Below, one piece after another: positions 30,703 through 63,600 of a stretch of 64,000 nt of DNA (its first letter is position 1; the number at the start of each line of letters is the position of its first letter). The stretch covers positions 1 through 64,000 of the forward strand of contig NTMA01000035.1 of NCBI GenBank assembly GCA_002917075.1. The letters are read 5' to 3'. The notes below the pieces were generated by a model. It saw only the letters and a list, made by a program, of their open reading frames with translations, was not told the origin of the DNA and did no database searches. Both the position numbers and the translations under genes were made by a program. Source of the stretch: Hawksworthiomyces lignivorus (lineage: Eukaryota > Ascomycota > Sordariomycetes > Ophiostomatales > Ophiostomataceae).

Positions 30703-33700
30703 ATGAAATCACCACGGACGCTCCGTATTGGTATTGATGTTGGCGGGTAAGATACGGCAAAATCTCGATGATTCATGCACACAGTATCCTGTTTCTGCGA
30801 CCGCTGATGATGATACAGGACAAACACGGACGGTGTCATCCTGGATCTGACACGGTCCTCTCAGGCTGAGATGGGTATTCTAGCATGGAACAAATCGAGC
30901 ACAACCAAAAACCCGAGTGATGGTATCAACAATGTCATCAAGAGAATGTTTGAGCAGTCGCAGGTCGACCCCAAGGATGTCGCAAGCGTCACCATCGGTA
31001 CGACCCATTTTATCAACGCCGTCGTAGAGATGGACCAGTCTCGTCTCGCAAAAGTGGGGGTGATTCGACTGGCGGGGCCTTTCTCCAAAGATATTCCCAT
31101 CGGCATCGACTGGCCACCGAGATTGCGCAAGATCATCTGTGGGCATCGCGGTATTATCGATGGTGGCTTGGAGATTGACGGGACTTTGATCGCCGAGCTG
31201 GACGAGGATGCAGTAAGAAGCCAATGCGAGGAGATTAAAGCCAAGGGGATCAAGAGCATCGCCATTGTCGGTGTTTTCAGCCCTATCGATATCGTGTTTA
31301 GGCAAGAAGAGAGGGCCGCTGAGATTATTCGAAGTATTTATCCCGAAGCCGACATTGTCTGCTCAAAGGACGTGGCCAACATTGGGTTTCTCGAAAGGGA
31401 GAACGCCGCGATTCTCAACGCCTCTATTCTTGCTTTCGCTCGTTACACCATCCATTCGTTTCAGAGTGCCATTTCTCGTCTAAATCTAGAATGCCCAGTC
31501 TTTGTTACTCAGAACGATGGCACCATTCTTCCTGCTGCTGTCGCCGCGAGATTACCCATCCGGACGTTCTCCAGTGGTCCCACCAACAGTATGCGGGGCG
31601 CGGCATTTCTACTGCAGGGCCAGGACCAGGAGGTCATGATGGTCGTCGATATTGGAGGGACGACGACCGATGTGGGCCTTCTTCTGAAGAATGGCTTCCC
31701 GCGACAATCCGCAGCTTATAGCGAGATCGCTGGTGTTCGCACTAATTTTTCCTATCCAGATGTCAGGAGCGTCGGCCTCGGAGGCGGTTCAATAGTGTCA
31801 TACGACAAAGCTGGAAACCTGACAGTTGGCCCCGAGAGTGTTGGGTACCAGATTCAGCAGAAGGCGATCATATTCGGTGGAAATATTCCCACTGCTACTG
31901 ATTACACTGTCCTGGCAGACAATAAAGTGAACATTGGAACCCGATCGAAACTAGACGGGAATAACCTCGAGGCATCACTGCCTGAATTCAAGGCCAAGGT
32001 CAAGTCTATGCTGGAAGGCATTGTGGACACGATGAAGACATCACCGGAAGACATTCCCGTTGTTATGGTCGGAGGAGGTGCAGTTATAGCTCCCGACAGC
32101 CTCAAGGGTGCCAGCAGGGTAGTAAAGCCGAAGTGGTCGGAAGTGGCCAACGCCATCGGCGCTGCAACTGCCCGTGTAAGTGGCGTCGTCGATTCGGTCG
32201 AAAGTACCGAGACGAAGACAAAGGACGAGCTTATGCAAATTCTGTCCAAAAGAGCCATTGACAAAGCTGTAGAGAATGGGGCCTTGAGGGATACAGTGAC
32301 GATTGCGGAGATGGAGACTTTCCCGCTTCAGGCAAGCCATATCTATTAGAACGAAATCATTATGCTCGTAATTTACTAACAGCCATGTCTTCTAGTATAT
32401 TGCTAACAAGTCTCGGATGATTGTGAAAGCAGTGGGCGACTTCGACTACTCTCGAACAGACTTTGAGGACATCCCTGTCAACGCAGACATAAGCTTGGAC
32501 GTGTCTGTCGATGACACGAACCATGTGGCTCAGAAGAAGGCAGGCGTCGAGGACTCTTCCGAGATCCCTGGCTCTTCCCGTTCAGTCGTTTTCAACAAAG
32601 ACTACATCACTTCGTACAAGCCAAATGTCACCAATAGGCAATGGCTTCTATCAGAGACAGATCTAGAGTTCATCACTATCGGCTGCTACATTCTAGGAAC
32701 TGGAGGCGGCGGTAACCCCTATCAACATTTTCTTCGTCTCCGAGAGATGCTGCGGGGAGGCGCTACCATGCGGGTCATCTCTCCTCATGATCTCAGCGAT
32801 GACGATGTGGTTGCATGTGGTGGAAGCAAAGGATCTCCACAAGTTTCCATCGAGAAGCCCCATGGTGACGAGTGCGTTCTTTTTCCAAGTATATAGGATG
32901 AAGGATTTCAACTGACAATATGCACAGAATTCTCGAGTCACAGCGTGAACTTTACGAGTATCTCGGCAGGAAACCGACTGCTGTCATCCCACTAGAGATT
33001 GGGGGAGGCAACGGGCTACAAGGCTTGGCTATTGGTGCTTCTTCGGCACTGGATATCCCGGCCGTTGACGGAGATTGGATGGGCAGGGCTTATCCAGTCT
33101 CGTGGCAGACCACACCTGTTGTATTCGAGCCGAAGCCAGTGATGGTGCCAACATGCATCTGCGATGGGAATGGGAGAATAATTGTAAGACTTCCCGCAAA
33201 GCTAATGAGAGAAGCCGCTAACCAGAACGGACGTAGATTATGAAGAAAGCACGCTCAGAGCTTGACGCAGAACGCGCCCTCCGTGCTGCCTTGTCGCAGA
33301 TGGGCTCCCATGTAGGTTGCGCTAAAGGGCCTGTCAGTGGCAGGAACACAAAGAAGTGGGTTGTTGAGAACACCATGTCGCTGTCGTGGAGGATCGGCCG
33401 CGCGGTGATGTTATCACGATGTAGCAACACGGTCGACACCGTGGCCGAATCTATTATTGCCGAGGTTGGCGGTGCAGAGTCTGCCAAAGTTCTTTTCAAG
33501 GGCAAGATCATCGGCGTTGAGCGCATTACTCGGATGGGACACGCGTACGGCGAGGTCATCATCGAGTCCACTGCGGCTCTAGAGGGCTCCGAATCGGCTA
33601 AGGAACGTCTCATTATACCCTTCAAGAACGAAAACATTTACGCCAAAAAGATTGATTCCGCCAACAAAGTAGAGGTATGTCGTCTTTTAGCCGAAACGCC

Positions 33701-37931: not shown

Positions 37932-39713
37932 CTAAATCTTTATCCACTCGAATTTAACGAGCAGCGAGCATTTTGTCTCCCGCCCCTTCAGGTCTAGCAT
38001 GGGGATGAATTTCCACCCTGGCTGCACGTACGACAGCCGCACAGCAGCCACCACGAACTTGGGGTTTGCCGACCAGCTTTCGTCATTCTTGATCAGCAGT
38101 CGCAGAAACGCGAGCTCGTTGTCCTCATATTCCCATTCCAGGACCTCGTCCCACAGCGGATCCGTCGGCGGTGGGCCCTCCTCCCCGTTACCCGAGATTA
38201 GGGCTCCTAGAGCCTTGAGACCAGTGCGTTTGTATACGTTTGTCTTCCGCTTGCGCTCTGCTGGCGGGGCACCTAGGTCGTCCGGGTGCACTAGCGAGCA
38301 GGTCAGATACGGCCGCACCGTGTCAAGGTCCCGGCCCTGGGCGATGGGGATCCCCGCAGCGCCGGCTACGTGCAGCCGCAGCTGCACACGCTGGCCCGTG
38401 CTCAGATCGTAGGAGCCGCCCTCCCGCAGCGCCGCCGGCTTGAGCACGTAGCCGTCGGAGCCGCGAAACAGGGCCTCGTTCAGCTGCATCGTCGCGTCGA
38501 ACCGCTGCCAGTTCAGCGCGGACACCTGCGCGCCCGCCGCCCAGAACGGCACCGGGTGCAGGTTGCGCGAGGAGATGCGCGTCCCCTTGGGATAGACGCG
38601 CATCAAGTGGCGCGAGTTGTGGCGCGCGATGGCCGCCCGCTGCGCGGGCAGATGGGCTGCCAGTCCCGACTCGGACAGGTTGATGAGGTGGTGGTGCGGT
38701 CGGTTCTGGAGCTCGCCCGGGTCGAACCAGCTGTTGTTGCCCGGCTTGACTGACTGTGCGTACACGCCCAAGGCCGCCAGCTCGGGAACGATGACCGCGG
38801 CGCTGGTCGCCTTCTTTTTGTTCTCATATTCTTCACGTGCCCGCTTCTGGTCCACGTCGTCCTCGTTGTCCTCGCCGCCCGAGCTGCTCGAGTCACTCGA
38901 GTCTTCTGACGTATCATTCTTCTCCTGCTCGCCGGGGATGTGGTGTTCTACCATGACGACCACCTTGGCGCCCAGCTCATCCAGCGTTACGTGCTCCTCT
39001 GGCTGGCCAGAGGGCAGCGGCTGCGTGAGTAGCCGGCCGCCCAGCACTTCAGTCATGATGTCCACGATGCGGCGCTGGCCCTGGGCACTGCAGTGGTTCT
39101 CGAGCGAAATGACGATGGGGCTGGGTCGACAGGAAGAACCCCTCTCTGCATCTGCTGCTTCCCGGTCGATGACGTCACGTATGGTCTCACACACTGCACG
39201 TAGTGGTATGTTGGACACGAGCGTGAAGCCGTGTGTCACCTTGGGTTCCTCAGCATTGTTGTCGTTGTCCCAGGCATCAATCTCGACACAACGCGAGCCC
39301 GTCGTCAGGGCTATGGCGTAAGCGTCAGCGCCAGAGTTTCCATACAACTGGTGGGCCTTGAGGTAGGTATTATGGCTGGAGCTGATAAAGTATTCAGGCA
39401 GACGGAACGAGCGATCGGTCAGCTCGGGGGGGAGGATCGCATGGGGCTGCTCTAGGAGAGCCAGCAGGGCGGCGCTGTGATCTTCTTGACCGAGACCGGC
39501 CTCGTCCTGGCGGAGAATCTGGCGGTCAACAAGGAATGCCTTCAAGGCACGGCTGACGTGAAGATCGTGCTTGGCTACGTCATTGGCCTGGACGCCATGA
39601 CCACCGCCGCCAATAGTAGCCTCGTCGATCTCTTCTCCTTTCTCATCATCATGATTCTGAGAGCGAGAAAAGGGGTTGAAAGAGGCGAGCTTGCCAGTCA
39701 GAGCTTTTGCCAT
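37932..39713 (-). CDS. Phosphoinositide-specific phospholipase C
   Basis: Single exon, 593 aa, true ATG at 39713. After a short N-terminus with a degenerate EF-hand-like stretch, the X box carries the catalytic set: His114 and Asn115 in SSSHNTYLKAHQ, Glu144 and Asp146 in CVEIDAWD, His161 in THGFTL, and Glu205 in SLENHCS. An acidic Ser/Asp/Glu-rich linker (about 265-305) separates X from the Y box (VYAQSVKPGNNSWFDP, HLMRVYPKGTRISSRNLHP, ALNWQRFDATMQLNEALFRGSDGYVLKP, given in pieces). A C2 domain ends the protein (VQLRLHVAGAAGIP...VRPYLTCSLV). There is no PH domain. It should hydrolyse PIP2 to inositol trisphosphate and diacylglycerol at the plasma membrane in a Ca2+-dependent way. It is delta-like in architecture, as in other fungal PLCs. 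Confidence 0.96.
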   Translation of the reverse strand: MAKALTGKLASFNPFSRSQNHDDEKGEEIDEATIGGGGHGVQANDVAKHDLHVSRALKAFLVDRQILRQDEAGLGQEDHSAALLALLEQPHAILPPELTDRSFRLPEYFISSSHNTYLKAHQLYGNSGADAYAIALTTGSRCVEIDAWDNDNNAEEPKVTHGFTLVSNIPLRAVCETIRDVIDREAADAERGSSCRPSPIVISLENHCSAQGQRRIVDIMTEVLGGRLLTQPLPSGQPEEHVTLDELGAKVVVMVEHHIPGEQEKNDTSEDSSDSSSSGGEDNEDDVDQKRAREEYENKKKATSAAVIVPELAALGVYAQSVKPGNNSWFDPGELQNRPHHHLINLSESGLAAHLPAQRAAIARHNSRHLMRVYPKGTRISSRNLHPVPFWAAGAQVSALNWQRFDATMQLNEALFRGSDGYVLKPAALREGGSYDLSTGQRVQLRLHVAGAAGIPIAQGRDLDTVRPYLTCSLVHPDDLGAPPAERKRKTNVYKRTGLKALGALISGNGEEGPPPTDPLWDEVLEWEYEDNELAFLRLLIKNDESWSANPKFVVAAVRLSYVQPGWKFIPMLDLKGRETKCSLLVKFEWIKI

Positions 39714-39828
39714 AATGTCTGGTAATGGAGCGAGTTAGTAGCTGTAGGTGAGTGTTGGAGAGGGGGTTGCCAAGCTGTGGCTTGCTTGGGATGCTTTATG
39801 TAGCTTAGACAACAAATAACAACAATAA

Positions 39829-40964: not shown

Positions 40965-43900
40965 CTAACGAATGTGTACAGGTAAGCTTTCCTCCTCGGA
41001 CAAGTGCGACGAGAGGAGATACCCCACGCCAACCCTTTCGTAGACGTCCGGAGCAACTGGCTTGATAATCAGGGACCAGCATGTGGGATCCCAGTTCGCC
41101 AGATCAGCTTTGGAGTTCTCCTCGCCCTCCTTTTTCTCTTTAATCTCCTTGCCAAGCACCACGCAGCGGAGAGCGTGCACGTCAAGCTCTCCGGGTACGT
41201 CTATGACAAGGCGTTTGAGTCCGTCCACCCGTTCAATGTTAAATTTTCTCGCGCGCCCCAGGAGGTCCATTGATATCGTGCTTCGGTGGTTATTATGAGT
41301 CCCCGTAACCGAAGCACCGTTGACGACTTCAAAGGTGCTCTGGAGGTCCTCGGTCCAGTCAACTTTTTTAAAGGGGACCTTGACGTATGTTATGGGTCCT
41401 TCGTAGGCCATCCACGACCATGAAGGCACGGGGCGATCGTCCGGGTACTCGATGCGCTTTAACGCGATGTCGTCCGGCCGGCACCACAAGAGACTGCGTT
41501 GCAGGTACAACTCGAAGGCGCCGTAGCCGCCACGCGTTTTCAAAGTGTGGAGTAGCCGCTTTTCGAGCCCTGCGATGGCAACAGCCCGGTTGTCGGCCTG
41601 CGAAAAGGCCAACCGCGAGTATATCTCGTAGATGTTCTGGTAGAAGATGATGCGCCCGTCTTTGAAGTACGTCTGTGCCGATTCGGGGAAGTCAGAGTCG
41701 CCGAGAAAAGTGGCCTTGGGGCTGGCGTTTGGGGTAGAGAGGTTAGCACAATAGGTTCGCTAGTGACAAAACAAGGCAATGGGGAATACGGTTCTTTACT
41801 TTAGTAGCTTTGCCAGCGTCTCGCAGTGGACGCCATTCCCACACTCCCAGTAGACCTGGGTTGACGTGAAGTGGATCGTGCGGCGCGAGAGGGCCCGCTC
41901 CTGTAGCACCCACCCGCGCTCGTTGAGTGGGCCGTGCTCGACGTCGGCGCTGAAGTTGTCGATGGCTTTGCAGATGTAATACGTCCCGCGCTGGGGCGAG
42001 TCGACGGTGATGCACGATCGCTGCAGCGGATCCCGTGGGCCCAGGAATCCCTCGAGCGACGACCTGGCGGAGCTCGCGGCGAGCGTGCAGTACGCGGCGC
42101 TGAACACCTCTTCCATGCGGCCTGCCTCAGCCTTCCAGTCCTGCTGGTCCTGCTGGATGATGCAGAGCGAGTCGATCCAGAGATAGCGGATGCCCAGAGA
42201 GCGCGTGATGCGCACAGCATCGCGGAACGTCTGCGGCAGTCGCGCCTCGTCGATGCGCTGCCTATGCGCGTCGATGTTGCTCCGGTACGTGCAGAGGCGT
42301 TGGTCCTCGGTCAAGTTTCCCCAGCGGTGGCTCAGTGCCACGTACTTGCCCGTCTTGTGGGTGTACCCGTCGAGAAGGCGTAGACTCGGACTCACCGCGT
42401 CGCCGACGTCGAGGACTCTAGTTGGCAGGAGGTTCTGGCCCGCGATGGCTGACTTGGAGAGGCAATTGTGCGACTCCTCATCTTCATCGCAGACCCTGAG
42501 CCATTCTCTGAGGAGTGCGACCTGCTCTGCACCTCCTTGCTCGGGCAAGACAGGCAGCCCGAGCTGGGCAAACGAGGGAAGCTCGACCTTGGAGTCTAGC
42601 GGAAAAAATGAGTTTGAGCAAATTAATAAATAATGGATATGCGTGTTATACTTACCCGGATCCGCATAGAGCGACAGGGCCGGAATACCTTCGGGGCCGA
42701 TCTTTAAAGTGGACTCCTCGCGACGCAATTCTGCTTTGCCCGACGCAGCATCCCGGCTCTGGAGAGCGGTCTGGTATATCAGCCTGCATAGGTCGCAATC
42801 CATTGCGCTCTCTTTCAACAGGGAGATATCAAAGCTGCGTTTAAATCCTGGAGCCCAGACATCCATGTCTTTGCAGTCGTCGCACAACTCCGGGTCCGAA
42901 GAAGGACGTGGCGGCCGCAAGCTCGCCCAGCCAACCTTGCCGCCAACCTTGTCGCCAGCCTTGTCACCAACCTTGTCGAAGAAGCTTCGCGCAAAGACGT
43001 TATCGGCCCTGGACTCCCAGATATCGTTCAACTTGACAGCTTCCTATAACACTGATTAGGCCTTTGGACAGCGTATGTGTGCCTAGGTCGGAGAAAACTC
43101 ACCGCCTATCCATCGGTTAGTTAAGCCGCGATACTTAACTCTTCATTGAAAACCAACATGGCAACTAAATTAGTGACTTACCGCCTAGTTAGATTCGTGA
43201 TTCGTTAGTTGATCTGTTTGAATCTAGAAAGGGAAATTTGAATACTCACATTCTGTTGTTACACCAAGAAGCAGGTGTCAGTAGTCGCCGATGGTTTGAT
43301 ATGTTTGTTCCTGGGGACACTTACGTACTTCACATAAGTTGCTTTAGTCACATGAATAACATTAAAAATGGTAGAGGTGCGGGTCAGAGAAACTTACTTC
43401 TTGAGCTGAAGCCGTTGAAACGGGTGCTCTCGTACTGCGACGATCATCCGGCGCTTTGTCGACCAAGATAACAATGTCCCCTGCGCTTTCATATTTGCCA
43501 TTTTCTGATTCTGAAGATGATTGACCTGCCAGTGAAACAGGACCCTTAGGATGATCTGCGTTCCTAGGCACTGTCAGATTAGTACTTCCCGGAGCGGCTA
43601 GTGACCTGCGCTGCTTTGCCTTCCAGAGGACTGGGTCAAACAGATAGGTTGAATCCGTTTTAGCCCGGTCGTAGATTATAGTCATAGACGCAAAGAGCTC
43701 GTCAGCCATAGCTCGGCCTTCATCTTCAGACTCGCCGGGCTCAAGATCATCTCTAAGCTTCACCTTCAGCATTCTTGTTGTCACAAGGTTCAGCAGCGCA
43801 TTGAGCACATTTTCCTTGACAGGGCCGCCGTTGAAGCCCAGGCGTTGCGACATGTCGCGGATGGCCCCGTCAACAACGTCATGGATGACGTACTTCCCCT

Positions 43901-45404
43901 CCCTATAGTCCCAGAAGCGCCGCAGCTGATTGATGCTGTCCAGCTTATCGGGTCCGTCGAGAAGCCAAATGAGGAACTCGAGGTACACGCAGCCCATAGA
44001 CCAGACGTCGTAGGCGCGTGAGCGAGCCTTCACCTTTTTCTTGTCTCGCTGCTTGCTCGCACTGTCATCCGCTGTCTCGTCGTCTGGTTTGTCATCGCAC
44101 TCGGGCGGCTCGTACCGGAATGTGCCGGTTGTTGTGATCGTCGGCTTGCTGCGGTTGCGCGTGGCCTCGATGTGGAACTTGGCTAGTCCCAGATCCGCAA
44201 TCTTCAGAACACCCCTTCCGCCCTCCTCGGTGAAACGAAGAATGTTCTCGGGCTTTATGTCGCCATGGCGGCCGTTCTTCTCGGCAATGGCGTTGAGGCC
44301 GTCTGCGAGGCCCCACATCTGCTCCAGCGCCCACAACACGAGCTCTGATTCCCGTTGGAGCCGTGGAGCCGTCTCCTTGCCTTCGTTCTCCCAGTACTCC
44401 CGGAGGTTCCCGCCGTCCGCCCACGGAAACATGAAACACAGGGCATCGCCCCTCTGGTACGTAGCGATCGGCTGGATCAGGTGACGGTTCTCTAGCTCGC
44501 TGATAATCTGCAGCGTGTTCGCCTCTCGCCTGAAGTATTTGTCCTTGTCGCGCTGCAGGTGCTTCACTGCAACGCGAGGCTTCGTGCCATCGGGCTTTTT
44601 TTCATAGTTAGGTTACACACGCACCCAGCAGATAGAATTTTAACATAAACAGGAGATTCGATGTCGACCTACTAGAACTATGACCTGTTGATGTGCATCG
44701 TGAACGCACACTTGGAAAACGCGACTGAAGTAGCCCGATTTCTCAGGGGCATTGAGAATAGGGATAAAGGGCAACGGTCGAGACGGATGGAAGATGTGTT
44801 CCAAGGTACCCTTCTTAAAAATAGGTGCGAGGAAGTACCACTGACTACTTGTGAAGCTCTGGATGTAGGAGTCCTTCCACTCGGAGAAGGCGTCCCAGCG
44901 CTTGGGCTTGAGCGTGTTAGAGCCCTCGTTCAGTGATCCGACGTCGAAGAGGCCCCGCTTCCGGTCACGCTTCTCATTAGAACGTCTCTTCCCCGTATTC
45001 ATCTTCATCTTCCACTGGATCGGGAGATCGCCATCACAGAATTCGCTGTCTCGAAGTGAACTGAGGAGCCAGAGCTCGTCGATACTGACTAGTGTTAGAA
45101 ACGATCGCTTAGCCACGTCCGAAGCGAACTTCACGAGGCCTTCGTCGGGCTTGATGTCATCTTCTTCGAACGCAGCTTCTATCTCGTCTCTCGTCGTGAA
45201 ATGCTCTATTTTGTCCGCCGGCAGAAACTTCTGGTCATCATGGACGCTATCTACTAGATGGTCAAAGATTCTTTCCCTGAGTGAACGGAGCGATGCAGTC
45301 GACGGTGGTGAATCTGGTTCATCTATGAGACTTTCCGAAGCAGAGTGAGAAGTATCAGGGGCTACAGCGATATGCAGTGGCAATATAGGCTTAAGAGTAC
45401 CCAT
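40965..45404 (-). CDS. Predicted N-module + protein kinase + HET-domain fusion protein
   Basis: Proposed exons: 45404-44673, 44594-43398, four 3-nt exons (43327-43325, 43252-43250, 43184-43182, 43105-43103), 43043-42656, 42595-41800 and 41721-40965. The total is 3,882 nt, in frame, 1,293 aa. Residues 1-244 are an N-terminal module (FSEWKDSYIQSFTSSQWYFLAP, LPFIPI) shared with the kinase at 50039. The kinase domain follows: Lys255 in VAVKH, HGDIKPENIL at 354-363 (HGD instead of HRD), ADLG instead of DFG at 377-380, YEPPE, and DVWSMGCVYLEF. The HET domain starts near residue 860 (YVALSHRWG), then LPQTFRDAVRITRSLGIRYLWIDSLCI and NERGWVLQERALSRRTIHF, with a C-terminal tail. HET domains trigger cell death in fungal incompatibility. 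The HET exon frame opens with no nearby ATG, while the kinase exon ends at a perfect GTAAGT donor, which supports one gene. Two separate genes remain possible. Confidence 0.75.
43044..43397 (-). other. Five-intron ladder with four 3-nt microexons
   Basis: On the minus strand the interval between the kinase and HET exons reads as five back-to-back introns of 70, 72, 65, 76 and 59 nt. Donors are GTAAGT, GTAAGT, GTGAGT, GTAAGT and GTGAGT; acceptors AAG, CAG, TAG, TAG and TAG. Branch-like CTGAC, CTAAC, CTAAC and CTAAT occur in introns 2-5. The 3-nt leftovers are TAC, AAT, GCG and GCG (Tyr-Asn-Ala-Ala). The whole interval is 354 nt, so single-intron removal also keeps frame. Confidence 0.6.
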
Positions 45405-50038: not shown

Positions 50039-53000
50039 ATGCCTCAGTCGCCAAAGATGGACAACATGCCTACCATGTTAACTTTTGACGATGACTCACA
50101 CGCCACAGATGGCGGCCCTGCAATACATGTTGATGGCTACGACGCCACCCGCTCGGAGGCAGCCAACCGATTTTCAGACCCATCGCTGTGGGATAATCAA
50201 TTCACGTCTTCGCACCTAGGTGCCACCGGCTTACCTTCGGAAAAGTCGCTGCGGGATAATCAATTCGCGTCTTCACACCTAGGCCCCGCCGGCCTGTCTT
50301 CAGACAGGCCGCTGTGGGATAATCAATTCAAACCTTCGCACTTGAGCACCGCTGGACTGCTTCCGGAGCGGTCGAGAAGCCCAGTTTTTGTAGTTAGCCC
50401 GGTTGACGGTAATGAGCGACCACTCGAAGACGAAGACTACCAACAGGGCCACATCTCGGCCTCCGACACCGACCAATCTGATGTCTTTAAGAGCATCACG
50501 ACAGTCGAAGACTTGGGCTTCGGGGTAGATGCGACTTCTCAGAAGCACAGATCCCAGGTAGATGAAGCAGCTCCCGGAGCTGCGACGTTGGACCTGCCTG
50601 CTGCTGGGCGGTCTGCGCAACCTGCCTTGGAGAACGGTGATGCGGCTGTTTTACAGGAGGTCGGTAGTTTTTTTGCAGTACAGCAGCATGACCCTAGCGC
50701 AAGCGCGGAAGAACTGGTTAAATTCCTCGAAGATGAAGCCGGGCCCGACAGCACCGCGGACGCTGTCGACGACATCGACGCTGCGACCCTTGGGGAGGAA
50801 ATTCGTTCTTCATACTCGATTTCTCAGCCCAGCGGTTCGAAATTCGTGCCACTCGACGTCTTGTACAAAATCGTCAACGCACACAACGTCCGAATTCTAC
50901 TACGAAAGGCATACCAACATCTCACGGAAAGAGACCTAAATAAGTGCTGCCGCCAGATCTGTGGGCCAGACGTATTGGGCACAGACGAAGGCACGGGCTG
51001 TCGCAGGATATTCGCCATTCTGATTCTTCTTGAAAAGGTCCACTGCATTGTAAACTTTATTCGTGCCGGGCTACGTGATACCCATCTACCACTGAGAATA
51101 GAACGAGATCTGAACCTTCACAAATTCCTGGTCTACCACAAGAATGACATTCATCGTGCCAAGCCCCTCACTTTCTTTTATGACTGGCGCAGTAGCGACC
51201 TGGAGAGCTTTGACTACAACCAATGGTACATGATGGCACCCTTCTTTCATCTTCGTGGCAACCACGTCTGCTTCTACAAAGACATAGACCGACACATTGT
51301 TCTACCTTTTATTGAGTATAAGCGGGGGATGCAGCAGGGCGGCCATGGCACGGTCTGGAAAGTTAAGATCCATCCAGCCCATCATAGCTTTCAGTCTTCG
51401 CAGGTGAGTCCACTTAGGTTCTTGATTCCTCGATACTCGTACCTGACTAACCTAAATCTCCCCAACAGGATTTTCCCGAACAGAACCCTTATTTTGCAGT
51501 CAAAGAGCTCCATTCTGACAATGCCACTGCATTTCGCAAAGAGGTCGAGGTCTTGGAGAAGTTCAGCGGGTCAAGTAAGAGACATCCACACCTGATCCGG
51601 CTGCTCCTCACCTTTCAACACAGACAAACGTATTACCTCGTCTTCAACTGGGCAGATGGCAATCTAAAGGAGTTTTGGGCTCTCAACCCTCGTCCTCAAA
51701 TCTGTCTGAAGAACGCCCGCTGGCTCATGGAGCAGTGCCACGGGCTTGGTAATGGCCTGCGCAAGATCCACCAAGCCAAGTCGTGGCCTAAACGGAAGGG
51801 GGGTGGAAAAGGGGATGAGAAGGAGGGCGGGGACGCAGAATTGCTCATAGACGAAAAAGAAAAGAACTGGGGCAGGCACGGTGATATCAAGCCGGAGAAC
51901 ATACTTTGGTTTAAGTATCGATACCAGCTTGTCATTTCCGACTTTGGCCTTACACGATATCACACATCCCTCTCCAAGTCGAAGGTACCACACGAAAGTC
52001 TCGGCGGTTATTCACCTAACTACCGACCCCCAGAGTACGACCTGAAAACTCCCATTTCCCAGCGATACGATATCTGGGCCCTGGGCTGTCTCTACCTCGA
52101 GTTTATCTCCTGGTACATACTTGGCAGTGCTGCAACCCTCAAGGATTTTGTCGACGCACGCCTGAAAGATGATATTATCAGCGAGATATTCGAAGAAGAC
52201 AAGTTCTTCAACATCATACCCAACGAAAGCCGGTATCCAGGTCACGCCAAAGTGAAAGACTCAGTAAAAGAAGTAAGTAGTGGTCTTTCCTCTGTCAAAC
52301 GCTGTTGCAAAACCTAGTCGATTTGTTCGGGGTACTAACTGAGTGAAATTCAAGTGGATACAAAAAATTCGTGACCACGCCAGCTGCCCCATATTCATCC
52401 ATGACTTCTTGAATCTGATTGAGGAGCACATGCTCATTCCCAAGTCCGATGAACGGTGGGAGTGTGCCCGTGTTTGTGCCGAGCTCAAAGCTATCAATAA
52501 TCGATGTGAAAAAGATGGCGCTTATTGCATGAAGGACCTGAACTCGACGAAGAACGGCATTATGCATAGCAGTCTAGCTAGTATTGCGGGCGACCGACCT
52601 GAGGTGTGTCTTACGCTTTTGCTGCATCTTATATCTCCCGATTTAGTTTGCAGCTAACATGTTAATCTGAGTAAGACGTCGATGATAGATGGCCAGATTC
52701 CAGAGCGCTCCATACACAGCCTTGATAGTGCTATGTATGATACGGCGCCCGCCTACACAGGCTCTATGCCACAAGACAGCATTCTCGACCAAACCCACTC
52801 GACGCTGAGAGTGCATGATAGCAACGAGCAGGGGCTGCACACCAAAGGCAAAGGCAAAGGCAAAGAGATCCCCCAAAGTTTAGAAGGCAAGCCGCTAGGT
52901 GGCATACCAGACCCTCCACCTGCTGCCACAGCAGGGCACAGCTTGGAAACCGTGGAACTTCCCGATACTGGTGGCAATGATAAGGAGGAGCGTGACCCCC

Positions 53001-54124: not shown

Positions 54125-55720
54125 CTAGTAACGTAGTCTTTTACCTCTCACTTTAACAGCAGCACCATTCTCGGCTAGCAACTGCATGATAGCCTCGTTG
54201 CCATTCCTGGTGGCACATGATAACGTTGTCTGGCTATATTTACTTTGCGTATTAACAGAGGCACCATTATTTATTAACATCCGCACGATGGCCTCCTGGT
54301 CATTCTTTACGGCCCACCATAGTGAGGACCGGTCATTGATATCTTTCGCTTCGACGACGGCGCCTGTCTCGATTAGTAACCACACGACGGCCTCGTGGTT
54401 ATTTGCGACGGCTAACAGTAGTGGCGTCCAGCCGAATTTTTCTTTTGCTCGATGGCTGCTCTATTCTTGATTAATAACCGCACGATAGCCTCATGGCCAT
54501 TCTCAGCAGCGTATGATAACGGTGTTCGGCCACGATTATCATCCACTTCAACGGCGGCACCCATCTCCATGAGCAGCCATACGATAGCCTCGTGGCCGAT
54601 CTCAGCAGCCCACGACAGTAACGTCCGGGCATTGATATCTTTCGTTGCAACATTGACGCCTTTCTCGATTAGCAGTCGTACAACTGCCTCGTGGCCATTC
54701 CTAATAACCCAACATAGCGGCGTTTGGCTGTAATGATTTCCCGCTTCGATTGCGGCGCCTTTTTCAATTAATAATTGAACAATAGCTTCATGGCCATTCT
54801 GGGCGGCCAACGACAGTGGTGTCTGATTATCATTGTCTTTTGTTGCAATGGAAGCGCCTTTATCGACGAACAATCGCACGACGGCTTCGTAGCCATTTTG
54901 GAGGCCCACGATAGCGGCGTCCTGCCGTACTTGTCTTTCGCGTCGACAACAGTCTCCTTCTCGATTAATAACCGTACGATACTCTCGTAGCCCTTTTCAG
55001 CAGCCAACGATAGTGGCGTGCGGGCGTCGTTATCTTCCGTTGCAGTAGCAGCATCCTTCTCAAGTAAGAGTCGTAAAACAGCCTCGCGACCGTTCCGAAC
55101 CGTCCACCACAGTGGCGTTCTGCCGTTGATGTCTTTTGCTTCGACCATGGCGCCTTCTTCAATTAATAGCTGTACGACAGCCCGGCAGCCACTTTCGGCA
55201 GCCCATGACAACGGTGTCCGGTCGTTGAAATAGCCGTACGATAGTCGTTTAGCCATTCTCAGCAGCCCATGACAGCGGCGTTTAGGCGTTGATATCTCTT
55301 GCTTCGAGAGTAGCGCCTTTATCGATCAACAGCCGTGCAACAACCTCATGGCCATTCTCGGCAGCCCATGACAGCGCTGTCCGGTCATTGTTATCTTTTG
55401 CGTCGATAACGGCACCCGTTTCAATTAATAGCCGCACGACAGCCTCGTAGCCACCTTCGGTAGCTACGGATAACGGCGTCCTGCCGTCATCATCTTTCGC
55501 GTTGACGGCAGCACCCTTCTCGACTAGTAGCTGCACAGCGCCTTCCGACCCTCTTTGGAGGCCCATCAAAATGGCGTTTGGCCGTGTTCATTATGTATTA
55601 CTTCGATAATAAGGGTTTTTTCCTCAGTTGGGAGACTATCCATCATCTCCAACGCTATATTATCTATCTCTCGCCAAGGGCCGTGAACCAGGTAAATTTC
55701 TTATGCTTCTTAATGAGTGA
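54125..55720 (-). pseudogene. Broken ankyrin-repeat gene
   Basis: The minus strand encodes a run of about a dozen 33-residue ankyrin repeats (NGHEAIVRLLIEKGA, DxxGRTPLSWAAE pattern), but in several frames. Breaks seen: TGA at 55566-55568, a one-base shift beside GGGCCTCCAAA at about 55554-55565, TAA at 55282-55284 and 55249-55251, loss of most of one repeat near 55230, a second one-base shift at the same GGGCCTCCAAA at about 54896-54907, and a third near 54440. Upstream of the repeats about 40 residues (HGPWREIDNIALEMMDSLPTEE) remain, with no start or N-terminal effector domain. Such repeats usually form the ligand-sensing end of fungal NLR-type proteins, but the nucleotide-binding part is absent here. 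Single-base deletions could partly be assembly errors; the stops and the missing repeat part argue for true decay. Confidence 0.85.
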
Positions 55721-60603: not shown

Positions 60604-63600
60604 CTAGTTCTCCATTTGAACCGCAGCAAACTGATGTAAGCTTCCGGTTGCCCTAACATGTGCCGTACTTAGCTTATCCAACGTTGTGCCAGAACTTGTA
60701 CCGTTAACCACGCCCTGTATTATGGAAGAATCCTCGTAATTCTTGTCCTCAAGCTTTGCAGGGCCCCAGCCACCACCTCCAGGTGTGTGCATTTGCATCT
60801 GCTCTCCCCGTTTGAGCGAGACGATGCCTTTCGCGCCGACGTTCACAGTCCGCATCTTGCCGCTGTAATGGCGGATCAATGCGAGGTTGAGCCCTGCTTT
60901 CCCAGGCTCGCCTCCCGCCATACCATACGGTCGGTATGAGCGCCTCTCAGTGTTCAGGGCAAACTTCATTGCGCACCGCGGTTCGAAAATGCGAATCACG
61001 CCATCTCCGCCATGGTGCAAACCTTCACCCCCTGAGCTTGGTCGCAGGCTAAACTGCCGTAGAAGCACCGGAATACGTTTTTCGAGTACCTCTAAATCCA
61101 TTACACGAGTGTTTGTCATGTGCTATCCATTCGCATTAGCAATAGCAGGATTATAAGGAAATTTTGACGGGTTGGGCAAATGTCTTACTGTGTGAACACC
61201 TGAGACACCATTCCAGGTGGGACCAGCACCACTGCCGCCACAAATAGATTCTCCATACATGAACGTATAACCAGCGAAAGGCTCCCCGGTCTTCGACACC
61301 TCTCCACCAAACATGGACATCGCATTCATCGTACCCTGGCTAGCCGCGCAAGCCTGGAATGCTCTCAAGACGACGTCTGTGACCCTGTTGGCCGCCGAAG
61401 AGTTGCCGGCGTAGACTGCGGACTCTGGGTCCGGTGAAATAACTGTACCCTCTGGAACCACTATATCAATTGGCGAGAGGCAACCCTGATTAAGTGGAAT
61501 ATCGTCATTGATGATGGATCGCATGACGTAGATGATGGCGGATCGCACAATACTAGGAGGACCATTCGTATTGTCATTCGTCTGGTACATGGTGCCTGTG
61601 AAATCAAATTTCGCACTGCCCGTCTCTGGGTCAATGGTGATTTTGAGGTGGATTTCTGTGCCATCATCCATCGAGTCGAACGCGACAAGTGGCTTTGGGT
61701 GAAGTTTCGCAATCTTCCTGAGATGCTTGCGGACTGCATTTTCTGCATTGTTTTGTATCGCTTCCATGTACTTTTGGACAACTTCCACACCATACTCTGC
61801 GAACAATTCCTTGATAAGAGTGCTGCCTCTTTGATTCGCCGCGATCTGAGCTTTCAGATCAGACAAGTTCTCGTCGATGCTATTTGACCCAGTGCAACCC
61901 GGAATCTTAGCCGGTTCCTCCACAAAGATACGTCGAACGCCTGTCATTCGTTCCCCTCGTTAGAAAACCTGACCTAGTTGTCAAAAAAGATGGCGTTCAA
62001 TGCGATGGGGTACTAACCATTTTCATCAAAGATTCCTTCGGAAACAAGTTTGAACGAATGGATGACGGCACCTTCTTCCTCGATACACGTAGAAAGAGGG
62101 TGGCCTGACATTCCTCCCAGCCCTCCAATATCACGATGATGCCCTCGTGCCGCAGTATAAAACAATATATTCTTGCCGGCTTCATCAAATACGGGGGTCA
62201 CTACAGTGAGATCTGGCAGATGCGTCCCGCCAGCCACTGGAAAATGAGGAGATGCGTTAAACATTCGTTGTATTACACTGCTCATGGAGACGGAAAATGA
62301 CTTACTGGGGCTGTTTGTAAGAAGCACATCACCAGGCTTGAGTTTTCCAGCATGTAGCGCATGCTGGTACTTGATGGCATGTTGCATGCTGCCCAAATGC
62401 ACCGGGATATGTGGTGCGTTGGCCACCAAGCCGCCATCAGGGCCGAAGATGGCACAGCTAAAATCCAAGCGTTCCCTGATATTCAGGCTCACACTGGTTT
62501 TCTGCAGCGTCAGGCCCATCTGCTCTGCGATGCTCATAAATCTGTGTCCAAAGATCGACAGCAAAATTGGGTCCACGACACTGTATGGTTGGCTTGTTTT
62601 CTTTTTGGCGCTACCGACTCGGATTAGAACTCTTCCTTCCATTGTAATCGCACTGGCGCCAGGAAGGACAAGGATGGTTTGTGTGTCATCCAATATAATA
62701 GCGGGACCCTACAGCTGGTTTTAGTAAACTGTCCGACTGTCTCTGGTGAATACTATTAATGCAGCTTACAGAGATAGAACGATTAAGGGGCAGGTCCTCA
62801 AGCTTGTAGACATAGGTAGAGACACGTCCAGTTTCCTGGAAATACACATTAGCGGTAGCGCACGCCAGTGACTTGTCGACTGGGACTAGGTGGGCGTCTG
62901 CGTGTGCCAGTTGTTCTGTGAGACCCTGGCTTTTAATTGCTAACAATGGATCAGCAGCAACACCACGCACGCGAATGTCATCAACAATGATCGGCCGTCC
63001 GGGAACGTCGAATGAAAACTCCGTGTTGTGTCGCTCAGAGAATGCAGCAATAAAGCTGCCATCCACAGGCTCCGGGATCATCAATGACGTGCCCGTTCCC
63101 TGGTATCGCAGGTTTAGATAGCGCTCATATCGAAGGTTAGACCCTTTGAATCCTTGCTCCATCAGCTTCTCGCGAGTTTTCTCCTCCAAAGCATCCAATC
63201 GGGTATGAAGCCTTGGCAAGGAGTCGTTGCCAAGCACCTCTGAGCTCGGTTCAAAGCTCTCGTGAACGACGTCTGCCAATGCCATGCCGTATGCCGAGAG
63301 GATTGACGAATATTTGTGTATTACGACCTCGTTAATGCCCAGGACACGTGCGACCGAACATGCATGTTGGCCCCCAGCTCCGCCAAATGCCGCAAGTCGG
63401 TGGCTTCGCGCATCATAGCCCTTGCCCTCTGTCAATGATCGAATAGGACGGCACATGGATTCGTCAGCAACGTTTAGGAATCTAAGAATCGTTAGTATCA
63501 TGTCTTGCCCAGTTTATGCGTCTTCGAATGCGTGAGTGGTATAAACGCACCCAATTGCCACCTGCTCAGGGGTAAGGTTGTTGCCTGTCTCCTTATTGAT

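Follow-up and report, generated by a model that had tools for sequence, protein, structure and literature searches.

The kinase-HET linker of a predicted gene on the minus strand of the window (the whole 64,000-nt stretch of DNA that was analysed) probably contains four genuine single-codon exons, set one after another between five short introns. This reading is based on the DNA and its reading frame, and on comparison with two paralogous genes and with the proteins of related fungi.

The ladder and the gene that carries it

The predicted parts of the gene and of its ladder are as follows, in minus-strand order.

44673..45404, minus strand: kinase exon 1; putative start codon and 3' end, placed by the open frame and relatives
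44595..44672, minus strand: putative intron within the kinase part
43398..44594, minus strand: kinase exon 2, with Pfam Pkinase, ending ...SAQE in phase 0
43328..43397, minus strand: ladder intron 1, 70 nt, GTAAGT...GAAG
43325..43327, minus strand: predicted microexon 1, TAC (Tyr); Tyr also in microexon 1 of paralogue C141 (TAT) and in part of the relatives
43253..43324, minus strand: ladder intron 2, 72 nt
43250..43252, minus strand: predicted microexon 2, AAT (Asn); Asn also in microexon 2 of C141 (AAC) and in part of the relatives
43185..43249, minus strand: ladder intron 3, 65 nt
43182..43184, minus strand: predicted microexon 3, GCG (Ala)
43106..43181, minus strand: ladder intron 4, 76 nt
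43103..43105, minus strand: predicted microexon 4, GCG (Ala)
43044..43102, minus strand: ladder intron 5, 59 nt
42656..43043, minus strand: first exon of the HET part, beginning EAVKLNDIW
42596..42655, minus strand: putative intron in the HET part, 60 nt
41800..42595, minus strand: second exon of the HET part, with the Pfam HET domain inside
41722..41799, minus strand: putative intron in the HET part, 78 nt
40965..41721, minus strand: last exon of the HET part, with stop codon

Four steps of the form AG-NNN-GTRAGT follow one another on the minus strand (AG/TAC/GTAAGT, AG/AAT/GTGAGT, AG/GCG/GTAAGT and AG/GCG/GTGAGT), at the coordinates that the original prediction had given for them, and the intron lengths it reported (70, 72, 65, 76 and 59 nt, normal for fungi and 342 nt in sum) were recovered, as were its uniform GTRAGT donors. 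All five donors and all five AG acceptors are unbroken. A branch-point-like motif is present in each of the five introns, starting 20, 29, 24, 15 and 16 nt before the AG; that of intron 1 is the weaker CTAAA, and the acceptor of this intron is GAAG, not YAG. Phase 0 is kept throughout, from the GAA that ends the kinase exon, through the four codons, to the GAA of the HET exon, so that the frame is preserved between the kinase and HET exons, as had been claimed, and the predicted mature linker reads ...SAQE-Y-N-A-A-EAVKLNDIWES.

The two sides of the ladder are most likely one gene, spliced together, as the domains on both sides and the full-length fused relatives indicate. A Pfam scan of the four exon frames, which are frame-compatible, returned Pkinase (2e-18) and HET (2.1e-31), the latter over the full length of the Pfam profile, and neither a NACHT nor an ankyrin domain was found on these frames. 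With Pkinase and HET in one predicted protein, the gene falls within the fungal kinase-HET fusion family. Of 7992 candidates scored against residues 1-1200 of the joined protein, 569 are relatives at E <= 0.001. The 120 of these that were listed carry kinase and HET labels, and the best of them, from Thozetella sp. PMI_491, is 52 percent identical over 97 percent. The donor of kinase exon 1, GTAGGT, is uncertain, having been picked by frame and by likeness to relatives.

Just inside the first HET exon, at 42930-42978 of the window, lie about four copies of a 12-bp repeat, coding around KVGDKAGDKVGGKVG; 13 other alignment rows lack, or nearly lack, the twelve residues at this place. Adjoining the kinase-HET gene is a single open frame (37935-39734, minus strand) for a phosphoinositide phospholipase C with X and Y domains. 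The window also holds a weaker second kinase match (51484-52128, plus strand) with an ankyrin-repeat frame near it (54415-54996, minus strand), and two separate hydantoinase/oxoprolinase-like regions (30814-32346, plus strand; 61126-63513, minus strand).

Specificity of the series and sister ladders in two paralogues

Within the window, AG-N3-GTRAGT occurs six times on the minus strand, four of them within about 230 nt, and not at all on the plus strand, while the other spacings from 0 to 24 between AG and a GTRAGT donor occur 0 to 4 times per strand. With the looser donor GTRNGT the count for spacing 3 is unexceptional (11 on the minus strand vs 15 for spacing 2); the unusual feature is the chain of steps, not the plain count of spacing 3. 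Of 100 Markov resamples of the window, 98 had a longest perfect-donor chain of 1 and two had no such step, against the observed 4, which bears out the original view that chance repetition is unlikely.

Across the whole genome (43,707,421 bases), a pattern of three such donors gave three overlapping matches, all inside the window ladder, and none in the control. Perfect-donor steps with gaps of 40-70 nt numbered 14, 7 and 9 for exons of 3, 4 and 2 nt, respectively, as against 24, 13 and 17 in the reversed controls; steps of 3 nt with gaps of 71-100 nt numbered 8, two of them in C154, with 9 in the control. A genome-wide habit of single 3-nt exons is not supported, perfect steps being no more frequent than in the reversed controls. 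Six of the 14 steps belong to two kinase-HET ladders (three in C121 and three in C154), and the other eight, read by eye, contained no chain above 1.

When donors looser than GTRAGT were allowed in 47 loci, overlapping loci being counted apart, three kinase-HET genes, and no other locus, contained chains of 4, 5 and 6 steps; in 940 Markov resamples the chain never exceeded 2. Among the exon lengths tried, only 3 nt exceeds this value, chains for lengths of 1, 2, 4, 5, 6, 7 and 9 never rising above 2. A scan of 23 further loci gave no ladders beyond those of the window and C154. These chain scans took in 43 of the 88 HET match rows wholly and left out the 89 NACHT match loci, and imperfect-donor ladders elsewhere in the genome would escape the perfect-donor genome searches. 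The genome has at least 88 HET and at least 89 NACHT match rows (matches, not genes), a large nonself-recognition-type repertoire.

A genome search with the kinase exon gave 11 matches, and one with the HET frame gave the HET match rows just mentioned; besides the window, two places had both kinase and HET matches, C141:265853-268623 and C154:45627-48713. As read from the DNA and the frame, ladders are present in the kinase-HET linker of both paralogues, and several consecutive 3-nt exons can be placed in all three genes (4 in the window, 4 in C141 and 7 in C154). The C141 chain of 5 steps counts a GAC that we take as the end of the kinase exon, leaving four microexons; a GCT step in C141 was rejected as a microexon, since one of the introns beside it would then be about 15 nt long. 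The first of the seven C154 microexons (AAC, donor GTAGGC) was added by eye.

The C141 linker reads D-Y-N-V-F-QSSKLNGIW and that of the window E-Y-N-A-A-EAVKLNDIW, and all five intron positions agree; the C141 microexons are TAT, AAC, GTG and TTT. Microexons 1 and 2 encode Tyr and Asn in both genes with different third bases (TAC/TAT, AAT/AAC), and the two proteins are 42 percent identical in the kinase part and 47 percent in the HET part. C154 reads Q-N-P-Y-T-T-P-D-LDDVW, with seven microexons (AAC, CCC, TAC, ACG, ACC, CCT and GAT) and eight introns of 66-116 nt; its microexons span residues 11 to 5 before the Trp, and those of the window and C141 residues 12 to 9. Perfect GTRAGT donors are found in five of five ladder introns in the window, six of eight in C154 and one of five in C141, and by the rule applied, no branch-like motif is present in the fifth ladder intron of C141. 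Compared in 153 pairs, the 18 ladder introns proved mostly dissimilar; the best pair, at z 3.2, consists of the fifth introns of the window and C141, which occupy matching positions, and the next pair has z 2.8. Ladders in the same linker of two sister genes point to a real splicing arrangement, not to chance, and a ladder in the linker appears to characterise this group of kinase-HET genes. The simplest account of the five shared intron positions would be that the ladder is older than the split of the window gene and C141.

Linkers of the relatives and the weighing of explanations

Aligned by script, 93 of the listed 120 relatives had a recognisable Trp anchor after the linker, and in 24 of these 93 a Tyr lies 12 (n=17) or 11 (n=7) residues before it; for the window Tyr to sit at 12, the other three microexons must be included as well. 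Examples with Tyr in the linker are P0003 (TYNVPQLSKLNNVW), P0004 (EYNNRETNKLNDTW) and P0011 (EYNELHRRNLDDVW). Of the eight relatives nearest to the window over the linker, five have Tyr-Asn at this place (P0003, P0004, P0005, P0007 and P0011) and P0021 has Tyr-Ser, and the four-codon form of the window linker fits seven of these eight better (by 2 to 22) and P0002 worse (by 4). The two closest relatives of the window, both from Thozetella (P0001 and P0002), have no Tyr-Asn at that place. Among the 15 closest over the linker, the four-codon form is better in nine and the shorter form in four, with two ties. Over all 120 listed relatives the shorter form is better in 57 and the four-codon form in 41, with 22 ties, when the window is compared, and the corresponding counts for C141 are 66, 30 and 24. 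Scored against a profile of the 93 anchored relatives, the four-codon form comes 5th of 16, after every one-codon form, and against a profile of the 69 relatives without that Tyr it comes 15th of 16. Among the 15 relatives closest to C141, 12 are fitted better without the codons and one with them, with two ties, and four close to C141 (P0053, P0054, P0030 and P0037) are short of exactly four residues where its microexons lie, as in P0054, DNQE----QSSKLNDIW vs DNQDYNVFQSSKLNGIW.

These sequences are gene models, in which real skipping and absence of the codons would look alike. Gene-finders are often unable to place 3-nt exons, which would yield the same shorter models. The models of P0006, P0009, P0013, P0015, P0022, P0028 and P0047 break or run on at the kinase-HET joint (AQE and then RVS in P0006), which is suggestive of introns read through after a 3-nt exon, or of annotation failing on tiny exons. 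The contigs of P0011 (3,611 nt) and P0062 (4,370 nt) have 218 and 329 nt beside the codons, less than the 342 nt of the ladder introns, and their linkers (DEYN-ELHRRNLDDVW and GLYGTVS-ALRKLNDVW) read as those of spliced RNA would; these two are probably spliced transcripts, or else their genes have no such ladder.

Two scans of viral contigs gave no relative, and a scan of prokaryote genomes gave nine loci, five of them short kinase matches; the four that were read (L071-L074) had HET or kinase alone, with no fusion and no chain. The contigs of these four are filed as bacterial (Hymenobacter RYN_300 and Deltaproteobacteria CPC1) and are possibly eukaryotic contamination. A protein search with the linker region gave no match, and one with the linker alignment gave a single protein, P0121, which starts ...NDIQ-ALRKLND.

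The shorter models bear on a different explanation, in which the interval is one composite 354-nt intron removed stepwise, the 3-nt steps serving as stepping stones whose codons are usually left out; the stepping stones would let short-intron recognition work on a long intron. We consider this explanation rather unlikely, though it is the one to which several of the comparisons above lend weight: skipping all four codons keeps the frame, the C141-type models lack exactly four codons, 12 of the 15 relatives closest to C141 prefer the shorter form, and this form is also ahead for the window among the listed relatives. However, shorter models are also expected if gene-finders miss 3-nt exons, and codons that never reach the protein should not be conserved, so that the Tyr and Asn kept between diverged paralogues with changed third bases, and the Tyr matched in 24 of the 93 anchored relatives, count against a composite intron. 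Stepwise removal of one long intron had been among the options listed in the original prediction, and it keeps this small share of the probability. True 3-nt microexons, another of those options, emerged as the best supported through the intron positions and the Tyr and Asn shared with the diverged paralogue, and through the Tyr-Asn of the closest relatives over the linker.

The other options fared less well. That the ladder was built by tandem intron duplication, by introner insertion or as nested stwintrons is very improbable. Microexons 3 and 4 and their edges look alike (TAG GCG GTRAGT), and the fifth introns of the window and C141 resemble each other, though at matching positions; yet the largest z among the ten intron pairs within the window ladder is 1.6, and a DNA search, which skips very common words, finds the interval once in the genome, namely itself. 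Introner insertion and tandem duplication are both disfavoured by the unlikeness of the introns and by the single match of the interval in that search. Nested stwintrons were rejected because no donor or acceptor is split: each donor is a whole GTRAGT, each acceptor a whole AG, and each intron has its own branch-like motif. It is scarcely credible that the series arose by chance, or that the interval is an ordinary gap between two separate genes. A kinase-only product is possible, since the frame of kinase RNA left unspliced would close after 11 codons of intron 1, but fused relatives are plentiful, a chain of 4 appeared in none of the 100 resamples, and the two paralogues have ladders as well.

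Proposed splicing of the ladder and known systems

If the four single-codon exons are genuine, each intron, being complete and of normal size, could be recognised by the spliceosome across the intron, that is, by intron definition, a general view of fungal splicing. The introns would presumably be removed one after another, because splice sites 3 nt apart could hardly be occupied at once. If one of the five introns is retained, whichever it is, and the other four are removed, a stop codon comes before the HET domain, and with intron 1 retained the frame ends after 11 further codons in the window, 6 in C141 and 34 in C154. Skipping any set of microexons keeps the frame, because each microexon is one whole phase-0 codon. 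A HET-containing protein would thus be made only from completely spliced RNA, and microexon skipping would give rise to linker variants, so that the array could be a gate or a linker diversifier. HET domains are reported to be sufficient to induce cell death when overexpressed (PMC12881547), and a splicing gate would therefore make sense.

We put forward a broader proposal tentatively, and regard it as possible but somewhat doubtful as a whole: the ladder may be old and widely shared in fungal kinase-HET genes, mostly missed by gene models, and may gate a cell-death effector through splicing: the kinase without HET would result from incomplete splicing, and kinase-HET from complete splicing, its linker being one of 16 splice combinations (12 different peptides). 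If the codons are indeed included, a single linker would be built up a codon at a time over consecutive introns, and at positions that agree between two genes whose proteins have diverged to the extent given above. Such genes would make a strong natural test case for the lower limit of exon size in fungal splicing, for the accumulation of introns at a single site, and for the question whether cell-death proteins of fungi are restricted or varied through splicing, and a number of public kinase-HET gene models may be wrong at the joint.

Series of small exons are known elsewhere. The micro-exon genes of schistosomes contain short exons in tandem, most with lengths divisible by three, from which in-frame variants can be formed; they differ from the present genes in belonging to an animal parasite, in their larger microexons and in encoding unrelated proteins. 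In the filamentous ascomycete Trichoderma virens, one microexon of the transcription factor gene Xlr2 has been studied experimentally and is either included or left out (PMC11121469); it is likewise a microexon in a filamentous ascomycete, but a single one and not a single-codon ladder. The abstract of that paper describes functional microexons as previously undescribed in filamentous fungi, and its references include Iotti et al. 2012. In stwintrons (PMC9024468, PMC12403724), one of the splice elements of an outer intron is interrupted by an intron lying inside it; the likeness lies in the consecutive splicing of closely packed fungal introns, whereas the donors and acceptors here are whole. 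In recursive splicing, joining one exon to the exon before it places a donor at the new junction, from which the next step proceeds (PMC6224609). The ladder differs in that each of its steps contributes a codon, and in that the paralogue has the same amino acids at two of the four.

The original prediction knew of no fungal gene described with such a series, and on this point it has to be corrected. According to three papers that cite Iotti et al. 2012 (PMC4986451, PMC3689799 and PMC10197012), the nank (NACHT-ankyrin) genes of Tuber melanosporum have multiple or tens of 3-bp, codon-sized microexons, which are alternatively spliced and diversify the protein. For kinase-HET genes, a search of titles and abstract openings, in a library from which subscription journals are mostly absent, brought up no report of a single-codon ladder. 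The likeness to nank lies in the series of 3-bp exons and in the nonself-recognition type of the fungal gene family. The nank genes are truffle NLR genes, in which, according to one review, the microexons diversify sensor domains; the genes described here are, in contrast, kinase-HET fusions with 4 to 7 predicted microexons, placed in the linker and at positions common to two paralogues. Thus, codon-sized microexons are already known in fungi, and what is new here is the gene family, the place in the protein and the positions shared by two paralogues.
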